DNA from: Leucothrix mucor DSM 2157
GTDB lineage: Bacteria; Pseudomonadota; Gammaproteobacteria; Thiotrichales; Thiotrichaceae
NCBI RefSeq assembly: GCF_000419525.1
Contig: NZ_ATTE01000001.1
Location: 2,872,501-2,936,500, forward strand
Reading direction: 5' to 3'
DNA length: 64,000 nt
In this document: piece after piece, positions 21,985 through 28,169 of the stretch
Layout of the letters: each line of letters opens with the position of its first letter
How positions within the stretch are numbered: the stretch's first letter is position 1
The notes under the pieces: model-generated
Seen by the model: only the letters and a program-made list of their open reading frames with translations
The model's database searches: none
Told to the model about the DNA's origin: nothing
Position numbers and translations under genes: made by a program

Positions 21985-23103
21985 TTATTTTGTTGTTAAT
22001 TCGATAATCTTTTGATTAATTAGATTAATTTTTTCATCCATCTCGCGATTTTGGCTCGCCGCCTCAACAAAGCGGTCTTTAAGTGCTTTGTTTTTCTCAT
22101 CTGCCCGACTTAGTTTACTAGTCACCAATTGCAGCTTTGCGTAGGTTTCCCGATATTGCTCACTCAGCTCACCTACACCATTCATTAATTCATCATCCGG
22201 GTCAGGAATACTAATGACTGCGGGCTCTGGTGTCTCACCACTGACTAACACTGAAGTTTCTGCAACCTCGATCTCAGCAGTATCCCCTGTAGCAGAATTC
22301 AACTCAACCTCTACAGACTCCAAGGTTTCCGGCACTAATTCCGGATCTGCTGCCACCGAAGCAACGACAGTCTGATACTTAGTTAAATCTTCGTTGATAT
22401 CATCCAGAATCAAATCATCCCCTTCAATCAGCTTCAAATCGATAGAGGTTGTTTCTGTCAGATTCAAATCCAAAAAGCCCGTTTGCTCTGGCAGGACATC
22501 CACATCGGAATCAACAGCAAGCATTGGCTCAGTGCCCTGCTCTTCTTCCGAAGTATCAAAACCACTCTCAACTGAAGCAAGCTCACTACCTTCTTCTGCA
22601 ATCTCTACAGATGGTTGCTCATTCTCAGAGGCTACTTGTTGATCAGGCATTGCTTCTTGGGCTTCAGGTTGAGCTAGCACTTCCTGCGCAGACTCATCCT
22701 GATCTAATTGATCTTCCGTAGACACAGCCTCTTCCACTTCGGCCAGCACTTCAGCAATATCACTTGAAATAGACTCTGGCTCAGAGACCTCAACTTCAAC
22801 GGCTAATCTCTTGGCAGTCTCAGCGATTTCACCCGACACCTCAGCGGCATCCAATACTATTACGGGAGATTGAGTCTCGCTCAGCCCTTCCGAGACACTC
22901 TCAGTAGAAATCACCGGATTAATATCAACCAACTCATCGGATGCACTCTGGGTGATCGCTGGAACTGGAGGCGCAGGCTCATCACTCATCATTGAAGTAT
23001 CCGATACAATCTCAGGCTTACTACTAAGGAAGCTATATATCAGTCCAAAAAAAATAAGGACTAACAAACCAATAAGGATAATTTTTATATTACGTTTTAA
23101 CAT
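21985..23103 (-). CDS. Acidic membrane-anchored protein with C-terminal coiled coil, unrecognised
   Basis: About 372 residues; I do not recognise a family. One membrane segment (residues 6-24, IIL-IGLLVLIFFGLIYSFL) follows a short basic N-terminus, so the bulk should face the periplasm. The middle 280 residues are low complexity, rich in Glu, Ser, Val, Ala and Asp with almost no basic residues. The last 55 residues (LQLVTSKLSRADEKNKALKD onward) look like a coiled coil. I start at the ATG at 23103; a GTG at 23151 would put 16 residues before the anchor. A role as a stalk or spacer in the envelope is possible but unsupported. Confidence 0.75.
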   Translation of the reverse strand: MLKRNIKIILIGLLVLIFFGLIYSFLSSKPEIVSDTSMMSDEPAPPVPAITQSASDELVDINPVISTESVSEGLSETQSPVIVLDAAEVSGEIAETAKRLAVEVEVSEPESISSDIAEVLAEVEEAVSTEDQLDQDESAQEVLAQPEAQEAMPDQQVASENEQPSVEIAEEGSELASVESGFDTSEEEQGTEPMLAVDSDVDVLPEQTGFLDLNLTETTSIDLKLIEGDDLILDDINEDLTKYQTVVASVAADPELVPETLESVEVELNSATGDTAEIEVAETSVLVSGETPEPAVISIPDPDDELMNGVGELSEQYRETYAKLQLVTSKLSRADEKNKALKDRFVEAASQNREMDEKINLINQKIIELTTK

Positions 23104-23303
23104 CTGATCTATCTCGTCGCTAGAGCCTGAGACGCAGTGAAGACACAGCACTACGTTGCGCAGAAGGATTAAGTTGAGAAATAGATTAGATCAAAGTAAG
23201 ACAGAAGCACGGGTGGTTCCCGACGAACTACCCGAACTCAAAGCCCGAATGAAGATAGGTGGTTTTGTATAAAATCGAACGCGTGGAAACACATGACGAA
23301 CGG

Positions 23304-24511: not shown

Positions 24512-25867
24512 ATGATAAAACGAGCATTACTATTGCTGCTGTTAACCGCCGTTTGGGCATTTGGTAGCTGGTGGTATTACACCTGTATGATTAAAGGCTT
24601 CTGCAGAGCAAATGGTGTTTTTACCAGTGCCGCTGAACGAGCAAACACTGCAGCACTTCCGGCGACTGTCGCAGCAACTGGCGCACTTGCGCTGGCTGAC
24701 TCCGATGCAGACACAAGCACAGAAACTGCCGCTGACACGAAAGCAGATACGCCTGTAGCACCAGTGACAACCACCACTGACTTTATCGATGCGGATAACG
24801 ATGCGATCTCCGATGAAACTGAGCGCAGCCTCGGCACTGATCCTGAAAATGATGATAGCGATGGCGATGGTATTAAAGACAATATCGAGCTAGGAACGGA
24901 TCTGAAGACACCAGTCGATACTGATGGCGATGGCATCATCGATGCGCTGGATGAAGATGATGATAACGACACCATCTCTACCATGGATGAAACCACTAAT
25001 GGCACCGATCCTCGCTCCGCTGACAGCGATGCCGATGGCTTAAGCGACTCCATCGAAAACAAAGCCACTGGCAAGCTTGGCACTGACCCAATGAGTCCTG
25101 ACAGTGATGGCGATGGTTTGAACGATGCGGCCGAAGTTGGCCCAGATCCTGAAACCCCAATTGACACGGATAAAGATGGCATTATCGATGCATTGGATGA
25201 CGATGATGATAATGACGGCATCCCAACCAGCCTTGAGCTTAAGCTAAACAGCGATCCAATCAATGCTGATAGCGATGGCGACGGCATCAAAGATGGCGAT
25301 GAGCTTGGCGAGTCTGGCATGCCTGCCGATACCGATGGCGATGGCGTAATCGATTTGATTGATTCCACCAACGACACGCCTAACGATGCTGACCTAAGTG
25401 CGGCACCTGCAGACGCTCCGGCTGATGACAAAGCGGCGGTAACTGATGAGCCTGCTAGCGATGATGAAGTCACAATCACCTCATCTGAAGATGGAACAGG
25501 TGCCAGTGCCAATGCTGACATTACTATCCAGAAGAGTCGTCTGTACTTCCCATTCCACTCAGCGAATCCAAAGCTGTCAAATGCTGCGACCAACTACTTT
25601 AAAGAAGTTGTGCAATGGCTAAACAGCAACCCTGCTCACAGCGTAGTGCTGACCGGGCATACGGATGACATTGGTAAAGCTAAGAACAACCTGAATCTGG
25701 GACTCAAGCGTGCGGTAGAGATCAAAAACATGATGATCAAACTCGGGGCAAATGCCACGCAGATTGATGTTGCATCCATGGGTGAGACTCAACCAATTGC
25801 CAACAATAAGACAGAATCCGGCCGCCGTAAAAATCGTCGCGTCGAACTGGTTCCGTTAATTAAATAA
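24512..25867 (+). CDS. OmpA-domain protein with thrombospondin type 3 (calcium-binding) repeats
   Basis: 451 residues. A membrane anchor or uncleaved signal (5-24) is followed by an Ala/Thr linker. About eight TSP3-type repeats span roughly 92-290: cores such as DSDGDGIKD, DTDGDGIID and DSDADGLSD, which bind calcium through alternating Asp. An acidic linker leads to a C-terminal OmpA/Pal/MotB domain (about 338-450) with TGHTDDIG, NLNLGLKRA and GRRKNRRVE, the peptidoglycan-binding signature. AGGAGA lies upstream of the ATG. It is the first gene of a three-gene cassette and probably bridges inner membrane and cell wall. Confidence 0.9.
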   Translation: MIKRALLLLLLTAVWAFGSWWYYTCMIKGFCRANGVFTSAAERANTAALPATVAATGALALADSDADTSTETAADTKADTPVAPVTTTTDFIDADNDAISDETERSLGTDPENDDSDGDGIKDNIELGTDLKTPVDTDGDGIIDALDEDDDNDTISTMDETTNGTDPRSADSDADGLSDSIENKATGKLGTDPMSPDSDGDGLNDAAEVGPDPETPIDTDKDGIIDALDDDDDNDGIPTSLELKLNSDPINADSDGDGIKDGDELGESGMPADTDGDGVIDLIDSTNDTPNDADLSAAPADAPADDKAAVTDEPASDDEVTITSSEDGTGASANADITIQKSRLYFPFHSANPKLSNAATNYFKEVVQWLNSNPAHSVVLTGHTDDIGKAKNNLNLGLKRAVEIKNMMIKLGANATQIDVASMGETQPIANNKTESGRRKNRRVELVPLIK

Positions 25868-25884
25868 TAAGCCCTGATACCAAA

Positions 25885-25906
25885 GGCCAGCTGTTATCAG
25901 CTGGCC
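25885..25906 (+). other. Intercistronic 9-bp hairpin
   Basis: GGCCAGCTG, TTAT, CAGCTGGCC forms a perfect 9-bp stem in the 56-base gap after the OmpA-domain gene. It has no T-run, so it is more likely an mRNA-stability or processing element that could tune expression of the outer gene relative to the two downstream ones. Confidence 0.6.
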
Positions 25907-25923
25907 CAGCCTGAGGATACGAA

Positions 25924-26073
25924 ATGTTTGAACATGCTGTTACTAAAACCTATGAAATGAAGGATGCCAGCCTGGAGTTATTGATTATGCTGGCAGGCGC
26001 TTTTTTATTAGGCTGCCTGTTTTGCTGGGCGCTAGGCTCTCGCAAACGTAAGCGCAATGTGAAGGAGGTATAA
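25924..26073 (+). CDS. 49-residue single-pass membrane protein
   Basis: A short gene with the reading frame ATG 25924 to TAA 26071. Residues about 14-37 form one membrane helix (LELLIMLAGAFLLGCLFCWA), followed by a basic tail RKRKRNVKEV. The segment DASLE-x3-ML-x2-AFLLG-x-LFCW is almost the same as residues 10-31 of the next gene product, so the two are paralogous at their N-termini. Only two bases separate its stop from the next ATG, and GGAGG near its 3' end serves as the next gene's ribosome binding site. Function unknown. Confidence 0.8.
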   Translation: MFEHAVTKTYEMKDASLELLIMLAGAFLLGCLFCWALGSRKRKRNVKEV

Positions 26074-26075
26074 TT

Positions 26076-28115
26076 ATGCTGCCTGAAAATTACACTTTAA
26101 TGGATGCATCGCTCGAAATTGCTCTGATGCTGTTAGCGGCATTTTTGCTGGGTTGGTTATTTTGCTGGCTCATGAAGAAATTATTTGGCAAGAAACAGAT
26201 CGATGAGATCGAATACTCTGCTGATGCTGACATGCCTGATTTAACGGCCAACCGCCCATTAAAAACGGGCTTATCGGCCAGTAGCCGTGAGCGCCTGTAT
26301 GACCCAGAGGTAGGAATCCCTCGTGGCGATGCGGACGTTGAAATCCCAACCGTAAATACACCCGAAGTTAACGTTAACTCGCCAAGTGTATCTGCCTCGG
26401 CCGCACGCCCACGCATCGATTTACCAGACCTTGATGGACCAAAGCTTGACCTAGAAGGCAAATTAGATGCTGGCCTAAGCGCAGGTAAAGGCGCACTCGG
26501 CAAAGGTGCTGGTATTGCTGCGGCAGGTATCGGCTCTATTGCTGCAGGTGCGGTGGCACTTAAAGGACAGATCGGCGACAAAGTTGATGATATTGATTTG
26601 AAAATGCCATCGGCTGAGATACCAGACATTGATCTGCCGGATGCCTCATTGCCTAATGTGAATATCCCGGATATTGACCTGCCTGATGTTGAGCTTCCGG
26701 ATGTCAATATTCCAGAGATTGATTTGCCGAGTGCTGAATTACCGGATGTCGATCTTCCAGAGCTTGAGCTTCCAGATGTTAATGTGCCTGAGATCGACTT
26801 ACCTAGTGCCGAACTACCGGATGTTGACTTACCTGACGTAGAGCTTCCGGATGTTAATATTCCTGACATTAATTTGCCAGATGCTGACCTCCCGGACGTA
26901 AACATCCCTGAAATCGACCTTTCCGGCAAATTAGATGCTGGTGTGGAAATGGGTAAAGGTGCTTTGGGTAAAGGCGTCGGCGTTGCTGCAGCGGGCCTAG
27001 GCTCAATTGCCGCAGGTGCTGCTTCACTAAAAGGCAAAGTAGGCGAAACGATTGATGGCGTTGATCTTAAAATGCCCTCTGTCGAAACTCCTGAAATCGA
27101 CTTACCAGATGCTGAACTGCCTGACGTTGAACTACCAGATGTTAATGTGCCTGACATTGATTTGCCCGATGCAGACCTGCCGGACGTGAGTGCACCTGAT
27201 ATTGATTTACCAGATGCTGAAATACCAGATGTCGACCTTCCTGACGTTGAGCTACCGGACGTTAATGCAGCAGACATTGACCTACCCAATGCGGAAGTGA
27301 ACTTACCTGATGCCAAGCTTCCTGACGTTGACGTCCCAGACCTCTCCGGAGAGTTAGATGCCGGCTTGGAAAAAGGTAAAGGTGTGCTTGGAAAAGACGC
27401 TGGAATTGCGGCAGCAGGTCTTGGCTCACTTGCCGCTGGCGCCATGTCGCTTAAAGACAAAGCGACAGATAAAGTTGATGACATCAAGGAAACACTTAAT
27501 GCACCGGACTTACCAAAAGTTGCAACGCCAAGCAAAGGCACCAGCACTGTAACAACACCCCACTCTGGTGACGATCTGACTCGCATCACCGGTATTAACG
27601 ATAAAGTCGTTAGTGCACTGAATGCCAATGGCGTAAAAACCTATGCGGATTTGGAAAAGCTTGATCGCACCACACTCAAGCGTTTTCTGAATGAGACAGA
27701 TGATGCCTCACTGCATATAACTGAACCCGCCAGCTGGCCTCATCAGGCGAGACTGTGTTCAGAACACAACTGGTCGAAGCTTCGCGAGTATCAGGACTTT
27801 CTATCGGGCAACCGACCAGAACTAACTGAGCAAACACCTGCCGATGACGATGGCTCAAGCTCTGCCCGCGACAATCTGAAGAAGATTGAAGGTATCGGTC
27901 CATTCTTTGAGCGCACACTCAATGAAGCGGGTATCACCACCTTCGCTCAGCTGAAAAATGCAGACCGTGATACGCTCAAAGCGATCATTGATGCGGCTGG
28001 CCCTGAGTACCACTCACACGAACCTGAAACCTGGCCTTATCAAGCCGGCCTTGCCGATCGTGGTGAATGGAAAAAACTGAAGGATTACATACACTTCATG
28101 ACAGGTCGCAGCTAA
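26076..28115 (+). CDS. Membrane-anchored LPDV-repeat (solenoid-like) protein with two H3TH/helix-hairpin-helix domains
   Basis: 679 residues. Membrane anchor at about 10-34, then a linker. Three modules start near 127, 283 and 423, each opening with a Gly/Ala-rich zipper-like stretch (GKLDAG..GKGALGKGAGIAAAG). Modules 1 and 2 continue into long runs of pentapeptide-like repeats, LPDV, IPEI, LPDA, VPDI, with alternating hydrophobic and acidic residues, suggesting a beta-solenoid or rod. The C-terminus holds two related H3TH-type domains (about 498-580 and 597-679), with LTRITGINDKVVSALN and LKKIEGIGPFFERTLN, each followed by a W-P-x-QA motif (ASWPHQARL, ETWPYQAGL). Acts with the two upstream genes by position. 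Function not known. Confidence 0.88.
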   Translation: MLPENYTLMDASLEIALMLLAAFLLGWLFCWLMKKLFGKKQIDEIEYSADADMPDLTANRPLKTGLSASSRERLYDPEVGIPRGDADVEIPTVNTPEVNVNSPSVSASAARPRIDLPDLDGPKLDLEGKLDAGLSAGKGALGKGAGIAAAGIGSIAAGAVALKGQIGDKVDDIDLKMPSAEIPDIDLPDASLPNVNIPDIDLPDVELPDVNIPEIDLPSAELPDVDLPELELPDVNVPEIDLPSAELPDVDLPDVELPDVNIPDINLPDADLPDVNIPEIDLSGKLDAGVEMGKGALGKGVGVAAAGLGSIAAGAASLKGKVGETIDGVDLKMPSVETPEIDLPDAELPDVELPDVNVPDIDLPDADLPDVSAPDIDLPDAEIPDVDLPDVELPDVNAADIDLPNAEVNLPDAKLPDVDVPDLSGELDAGLEKGKGVLGKDAGIAAAGLGSLAAGAMSLKDKATDKVDDIKETLNAPDLPKVATPSKGTSTVTTPHSGDDLTRITGINDKVVSALNANGVKTYADLEKLDRTTLKRFLNETDDASLHITEPASWPHQARLCSEHNWSKLREYQDFLSGNRPELTEQTPADDDGSSSARDNLKKIEGIGPFFERTLNEAGITTFAQLKNADRDTLKAIIDAAGPEYHSHEPETWPYQAGLADRGEWKKLKDYIHFMTGRS

Positions 28116-28141
28116 GCTATCAAGCTTAGCTAAGTACTGAA

Positions 28142-28169
28142 AGCTCTCGTTTTTACGAGGGCTTTTTTT
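28142..28169 (+). terminator. Terminator of the OmpA/LPDV-repeat cassette
   Basis: AGCTCTCG and CGAGGGCT form an 8-bp stem with one G-U pair and a 6-base loop, followed by seven T. A second perfect 9-bp hairpin (AGCTAAGCT/AGCTTAGCT, 28110-28131) overlaps the stop codon just before it. Confidence 0.9.

Follow-up and report, generated by a model that had tools for sequence, protein, structure and literature searches.

A conserved pair of a membrane-anchored OmpA protein and a membrane-bound HhH protein as a putative trans-envelope tether in Leucothrix mucor and other bacteria

It may be asked of three adjacent genes of Leucothrix mucor DSM 2157, at positions 24512-28115 of the 64-kb window (the whole stretch of DNA that was analysed, from a genome of 5.19 Mb), whether they belong together and, if so, what their products might join. 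All three are exact open reading frames on the + strand. Pfam and AlphaFold identify the first as a membrane-anchored TSP3/OmpA protein of 451 aa that would form the peptidoglycan-binding half (24512..25867, + strand) and the third as a TM-HhH protein of 679 aa with a transmembrane anchor, an acidic repeat linker predicted to be disordered and two HhH domains (26076..28115, + strand), while the second encodes a 49-aa single-pass membrane peptide (25924..26073, + strand), recognized from its ORF, homology and pN/pS. The sequence-only reading had described consecutive, co-directional genes ending in one terminator, and ORF calls and folding agree: the OmpA and peptide genes are separated by 56 bases, the peptide and HhH genes by 2 bases, and the unit is closed by an intrinsic terminator at 28139..28166 (+ strand; fold of -16.6 kcal/mol, z -5.6, then a T run). 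This terminator was missed by a pattern scanner and became visible by folding. A hairpin is also present within the 56-base gap of the window, and sister species do not share its sequence. A PqiA-like gene upstream is kept in three genera only and is therefore not part of the core, and the unit has no relative in IMG/VR that would indicate a viral origin.

Architecture of the three proteins

The first protein carries an OmpA domain (PF00691, 66.7 bits against a cut-off of 27.2, E 2e-18) at aa 348-442 (25553..25837, + strand), which would be expected to bind peptidoglycan in vivo, and a calcium-type TSP3 stalk (TSP3_bac, PF18884, 26.5 bits against a cut-off of 25, five stretches) at aa 91-290 (24782..25381, + strand). 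The AlphaFold model has a mean pLDDT of 81.6, with stalk values mostly of 92-97 that decrease toward its C-terminal end, and a confident helix at aa 2-27 that constitutes the N-terminal transmembrane anchor (24515..24592, + strand); the OmpA domain on a calcium-type stalk that had been read from the letters is thus recovered by Pfam and AlphaFold as a folded structure on a membrane anchor. At the periplasmic membrane face lies the conserved signature GSWWYYTCMIKGFC (aa 18-31, 24563..24604, + strand): residues W15, W20, W21, Y23, C25, K28 and C31 are invariant among 14 family members, and the W..C..K..C pattern is kept at 90% or more across phyla. The OmpA domain is conserved in the family alignment, and the protein itself in every Thiotrichaceae locus read. 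The membrane segment contains no charged residue, and its charge bias, counted as K/R, is uninformative for orientation; we infer an N-in arrangement at the inner membrane because the OmpA domain must be periplasmic to reach peptidoglycan.

The third protein begins with a transmembrane helix at aa 8-37 (26097..26186, + strand; pLDDT 82-96 over most of its length), predicted as N-out/C-in by the positive-inside rule, and ends in two stretches matching HHH_5 (PF14520, 45.8 bits against a cut-off of 27, E 9e-12). HhH domain 1 (aa 497-580, 27564..27815, + strand; pLDDT about 95-97) aligns with the RadA N-domain and NusA AR2, and HhH domain 2 (aa 596-679, 27861..28112, + strand; pLDDT 84-96 in most blocks), also an HHH_5 match, carries a W-P-x-Q-A extension and aligns with NusA AR2 and the PolQ HhH region. 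Two domains had indeed been counted from the sequence, but the H3TH type given to them has to be replaced by an HHH_5-type HhH with a family-specific W-P-x-Q-A extension. Helix and heads are connected by an LPDV/Gly-Ala repeat linker at aa 46-495 (26211..27560, + strand), delimited by AlphaFold and motif counts, with a net charge of -68 over 449 aa and a mean pLDDT of 31-52 per ten-residue block over its approximately 450 residues. LPDV-type motifs number 40 in the window protein versus 6-15 in five related species, and linker length and motif number vary even between Leucothrix species. A stiff repetitive rod, as previously suggested for this region, is consequently unsupported, given the predicted disorder and the variable number of motifs among sister species.

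The 49-aa peptide shares its membrane segment with the third protein, as had been noticed at the outset, and blastp (E 8e-9, 42 residues) indicates that this resemblance is not due to chance. Across the genus, 15-24.5 synonymous versus 1-10.5 non-synonymous changes were counted over 44 codons (pN/pS about 0.01-0.14), and because synonymous changes exceed non-synonymous ones, the codon comparison argues that the peptide is a real gene under strong purifying selection. In genus g8, which has a single TM-HhH protein, the N-terminal part of that protein is 72% identical to the peptide along 46 aa. Since the single HhH proteins of genera g5 and g8 have peptide-like N-termini, the peptide seems to be related, in truncated form, to the membrane segment of the HhH protein. 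A match to the LapA domain (PF06305, 17.3 bits) stays below the cut-off of 28. In two loci (L151 and L152, genomes G157 and G272) the OmpA protein has an extra N-terminal transmembrane segment, and a fusion of peptide and OmpA protein was considered there, but the resemblance between that segment and the peptide does not reach significance (E 9.9) and gives a hint only. Homology between peptide and HhH protein is, on its own, no proof of a complex.

Conservation of the pair within and beyond Thiotrichaceae

The unit is present, as two, three or four genes, in 26/26 Thiotrichaceae loci read, 24 of them with reconstructed genes and two with a partly obscured ORF call. Genus g1 has the OmpA gene, the peptide gene and a long HhH gene; genera g2, g4 and g6 have a short HhH gene in the third position, after which several g2 members carry another HhH paralogue; in genera g5 and g8 the OmpA protein is accompanied by one HhH protein with a peptide-like N-terminus; and in genus g3 (locus L063) the gene order is reversed and the OmpA protein contains three Ig-like domains. 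Outside this family, a scan of named genomes revealed TM-HhH proteins in Saprospiraceae, Chitinophagales, Flavobacteriales, Flectobacillus, Runella and Emticicia, and also in bins named Acidobacteriota, Myxococcota and Paceibacterota (Patescibacteria), some of which may be misassigned. An OmpA gene lies directly upstream of the TM-HhH gene, on the same strand, in 40/42 named loci across phyla. A further set of 247 Bacteroidota, sampled with less bias, yielded 20 TM-HhH loci; the OmpA gene is found upstream in 15 of them and the remaining five have no OmpA neighbour. In the 31 loci outside Thiotrichaceae, OmpA and TM-HhH are the only families that recur in at least four neighbourhoods, and HhH domains that lack a membrane segment, which belong mostly to soluble proteins such as ribosomal ones, show no pairing with OmpA. 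Counting by the anchor motif of the OmpA protein alone gives 8/369 class genomes and 3/198 Bacteroidota, a prevalence that is an underestimate because the anchor diverges.

Judged by gene neighbourhood, the core is thus an OmpA protein with an N-terminal membrane anchor together with a membrane protein ending in HhH, and the peptide is an accessory of this pair in some lineages. The proposed three-gene cassette therefore holds as an association, while its conserved unit is the pair, and the alternative of homologues scattered singly in other genomes is rejected by the Thiotrichaceae loci, the named loci and the Bacteroidota sample alike. Comparison of the predicted proteins further shows that OmpA and HhH heads and membrane segments persist and that the stalks are swapped between lineages. 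For example, the periplasmic stalk can be of the TSP3 type, of BON type in the Acidobacteriota and Myxococcota loci, or formed by three Ig-like domains in genus g3, and the cytoplasmic linker can be a coiled coil, extra HhH domains or the disordered LPDV repeat. Two matches to the OmpA model are frequent in Bacteroidota, and locus L114 lacks the OmpA head and shows a PG_binding_1 match, below its curated cut-off, instead. The calcium-stiffened stalk that had been proposed is compatible with the TSP3 stretches of the window, but a stalk of another type can take its place in other lineages.

Membrane arrangement and candidate ligands of the HhH heads

In all 55 HhH proteins compared (55/55), more lysine and arginine residues follow the transmembrane segment than precede it, and because of this excess the positive-inside rule predicts that the HhH end is cytoplasmic, in agreement with the earlier proposal that this end lies across the inner membrane from the cell wall. 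Contact between the OmpA and HhH proteins within the membrane would follow from the gene pairing and the conserved membrane segments, which make the formerly suggested common membrane complex the likeliest reading; a periodicity test that looked for a single conserved face along the membrane helices was not significant (p 0.22-0.44) and adds no support to it. Neither an enzyme domain nor a partner of the ion-conducting kind was found.

The explanation that we consider probable, if only by a little, is a two-component trans-envelope tether in which the pair would link peptidoglycan to a cytoplasmic partner, with a protein as ligand. The OmpA protein would be seated in the inner membrane via its N-terminal helix, the TSP3 stalk would span part of the periplasm and the OmpA head would grip peptidoglycan, while its partner, a single-pass protein inserted in the opposite direction (N-out, C-in), would carry the HhH heads into the cytoplasm on the disordered acidic linker of approximately 450 residues. 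The OmpA protein, the TM-HhH protein and the 49-aa peptide may pack together via their conserved membrane segments, and the ligand of the HhH heads would thereby be held at a wall-fixed point, which suggests a static role in anchoring a cytoplasmic partner to the wall.

Whether this ligand is protein or DNA is not decided by the HhH fold alone, because structure comparison aligns it with the HhH regions of PolQ, RadA and Pol iota as well as with NusA AR2; Foldseek with the whole third-protein model returned weak matches only. NusA AR2 is a protein-binding module. A tether of the same design whose heads bind DNA, fixing a chromosome or plasmid to the cell wall by a logic similar to that of LINC, is a real though distinctly less probable possibility: it is consistent with the alignments to RadA, PolQ and Pol iota, with the predicted cytoplasmic position of the heads and with the canonical GIGPK hairpin, which is usually kept in relatives outside the genus Leucothrix. 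On the other hand, the window hairpins read GIND and GIGPFF instead of the canonical GxGxK of nucleic-acid-binding HhH, and throughout the Leucothrix-genus species at least one hairpin lacks this motif and its basic residue. The charge of the linker (-68) and a mean HhH domain charge of about -1.8 in the wider family (the HhH tail of the window has a net charge of -8) also speak against DNA, as does the occurrence of the same HhH type on ribosomal proteins and its nearest sequence relatives in the PDB, the complex I 41 kDa subunit and the photosynthetic reaction-centre O chain, in which a DNA-binding role seems unlikely. Of the two ligands that had been contemplated for the HhH end, DNA or a partner, the partner is hence favoured, and DNA is possible but disfavoured in this genus, where the heads most likely bind protein.

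The occurrence of this HhH type on ribosomal proteins also raises the idea that the heads tether ribosomes or other HhH-tagged machines via HhH-HhH contact. Pfam identifies fusions to ribosomal L27 and S16, visible N-termini add L17, S6, L21, S1 or S2, and HhH-fused ribosomal proteins occur in genomes of lineages that also have TM-HhH proteins. However, in the genome of the window HHH_5 matches RuvA, NusA, UvrC, the TM-HhH protein and a short ORF, located at about 51.8 kb in the window, that is probably ComEA-like, with no HhH-ribosomal fusion among them; a ribosome link via matching tags is not needed since no tagged ribosomal protein was found in this genome, and the idea appears improbable.

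It is very unlikely that the pair belongs to a MotAB, TolQR, ExbBD or Zorya type of energised stator or transporter: a single-pass anchor with an OmpA head is indeed found in MotB, and weak matches to MotB and ZorB models were obtained, but these are limited to the OmpA domain, the anchor is devoid of charged residues, and no MotA/TolQ-like multi-pass partner recurs in the neighbourhoods. A DNA-uptake device with a periplasmic HhH must be judged very unlikely indeed. DNA uptake is known to involve membrane-anchored HhH proteins, as PMC9747964 describes for ComEA, yet the K/R distribution predicts cytoplasmic rather than extracytoplasmic HhH domains, the window has the separate, probably ComEA-like ORF, and an OmpA partner is not known to take part in uptake. 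Finally, the proposal that unrelated neighbours came under one promoter by chance has next to no probability, being ruled out by the neighbourhood counts of the named loci, the 31 non-family loci and the Bacteroidota sample, with pairing across phyla, swapped order in L063 and no other recurring neighbour.

Relation to known systems and biological meaning

The individual parts of the proposed tether are known domains, and inner-membrane OmpA anchors are of a known kind; the coupling to a cytoplasmic HhH protein appears to be undescribed, as no account of such a pair was found in the literature searched, a body that leaves out most subscription papers and preprints. MotB, TolR and TagL likewise combine an N-terminal single-pass anchor with a periplasmic peptidoglycan-binding domain (of OmpA type in MotB and TagL), but the OmpA protein described here has neither their ion-conducting partner nor their charged anchor residue and is distinguished by the W..C..K..C signature, a TSP3, Ig or BON stalk and a partner with cytoplasmic HhH. 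The outer-membrane anchors Pal, YiaD and OmpA share the OmpA domain, although the scores against YiaD (86.5 bits) and Pal (TIGR02802, 75 bits) are far under the curated cut-offs of 175 and 125 bits, and the protein is predicted to have an inner-membrane anchor instead of being a lipoprotein or a barrel. ComEA resembles the third protein as a single-pass membrane protein with a C-terminal HhH, but differs from it by the predicted cytoplasmic location, the WPxQA extension and the OmpA partner of the latter. The acidic repeats of NusA (AR1/AR2) have the HhH fold, which is acidic in the window genus too, whereas NusA is a soluble transcription factor and the HhH here is membrane-anchored. HhH-tagged ribosomal proteins, the complex I 41 kDa subunit and the reaction-centre O chain belong to the same HhH family, in which case the tag sits on other machines and lacks an OmpA partner. 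The eukaryotic LINC complex (SUN/nesprin), in which two membrane proteins join structures on either side, is an analogy only, since there is no homology and membranes and domains differ.

Taken more broadly, the pair could tentatively be seen as a widespread link, LINC-like in its logic, that connects the inside of the cell (chromosome, ribosomes or some unknown scaffold) to peptidoglycan via the inner membrane, with stalks that can be exchanged on either side, a generalization that we hold as possible rather than probable. If true, many Bacteroidota, Thiotrichaceae and other bacteria would carry an unnamed protein bridge between wall, inner membrane and cytoplasm. The pair may also help to explain the purpose of the HhH tag on ribosomal proteins in the same lineages, and it would provide a concrete two-gene target to study the attachment of cytoplasmic structures to the bacterial wall.

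The gene 1-2 gap and other genes of the window

The 56-base gap between the gene for the OmpA/TSP3 protein and that for the 49-residue membrane peptide contains a perfect 9-bp hairpin (GGCCAGCTG..CAGCTGGCC, 25885-25906), the sequence of which is not conserved in the sister species. Elsewhere in the window, a short ORF at about 51762-51923 matches HHH_5 and is probably ComEA-like. On the minus strand, 21985-23151 encodes a 388-residue protein that is acidic, of low complexity for the most part and equipped with a single N-terminal membrane segment; genus-wide, this position is occupied by a gene that resembles it in size and in its start.

Variant architectures in other genomes

In loci L151 (genome G157) and L152 (G272), the OmpA protein carries an additional fused N-terminal membrane helix and is followed by a TM-HhH gene; here the small peptide may have become naturally fused to OmpA. 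Genome G022 encodes a 1416-residue protein (L064:5111-9361) with a similar membrane segment, AFLLGYLIGYVLKGVFCRR, and with very long LPKV/LPDV-type repeats; HhH gave no match in this protein, which may be a related linker protein. TM-HhH proteins also occur in very small genomes (L111 and L114, bins named Paceibacterota), and the partner in L114 shares the anchor signature of the OmpA proteins but has a PG_binding_1-like head.

The HhH domain on ribosomal proteins

The HhH domain with the WPxQA extension, as found in TM-HhH, is also fused to ribosomal proteins of Bacteroidota (L087, L095, L097, L104, L113, L126, L138 and others), the partners being L27 and S16, identified via Pfam, and L17, S6, L21 and S1, identified via their N-terminus. 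In L067, from genus g5 of the Thiotrichaceae comparison, the same domain is fused to ribosomal protein S2.
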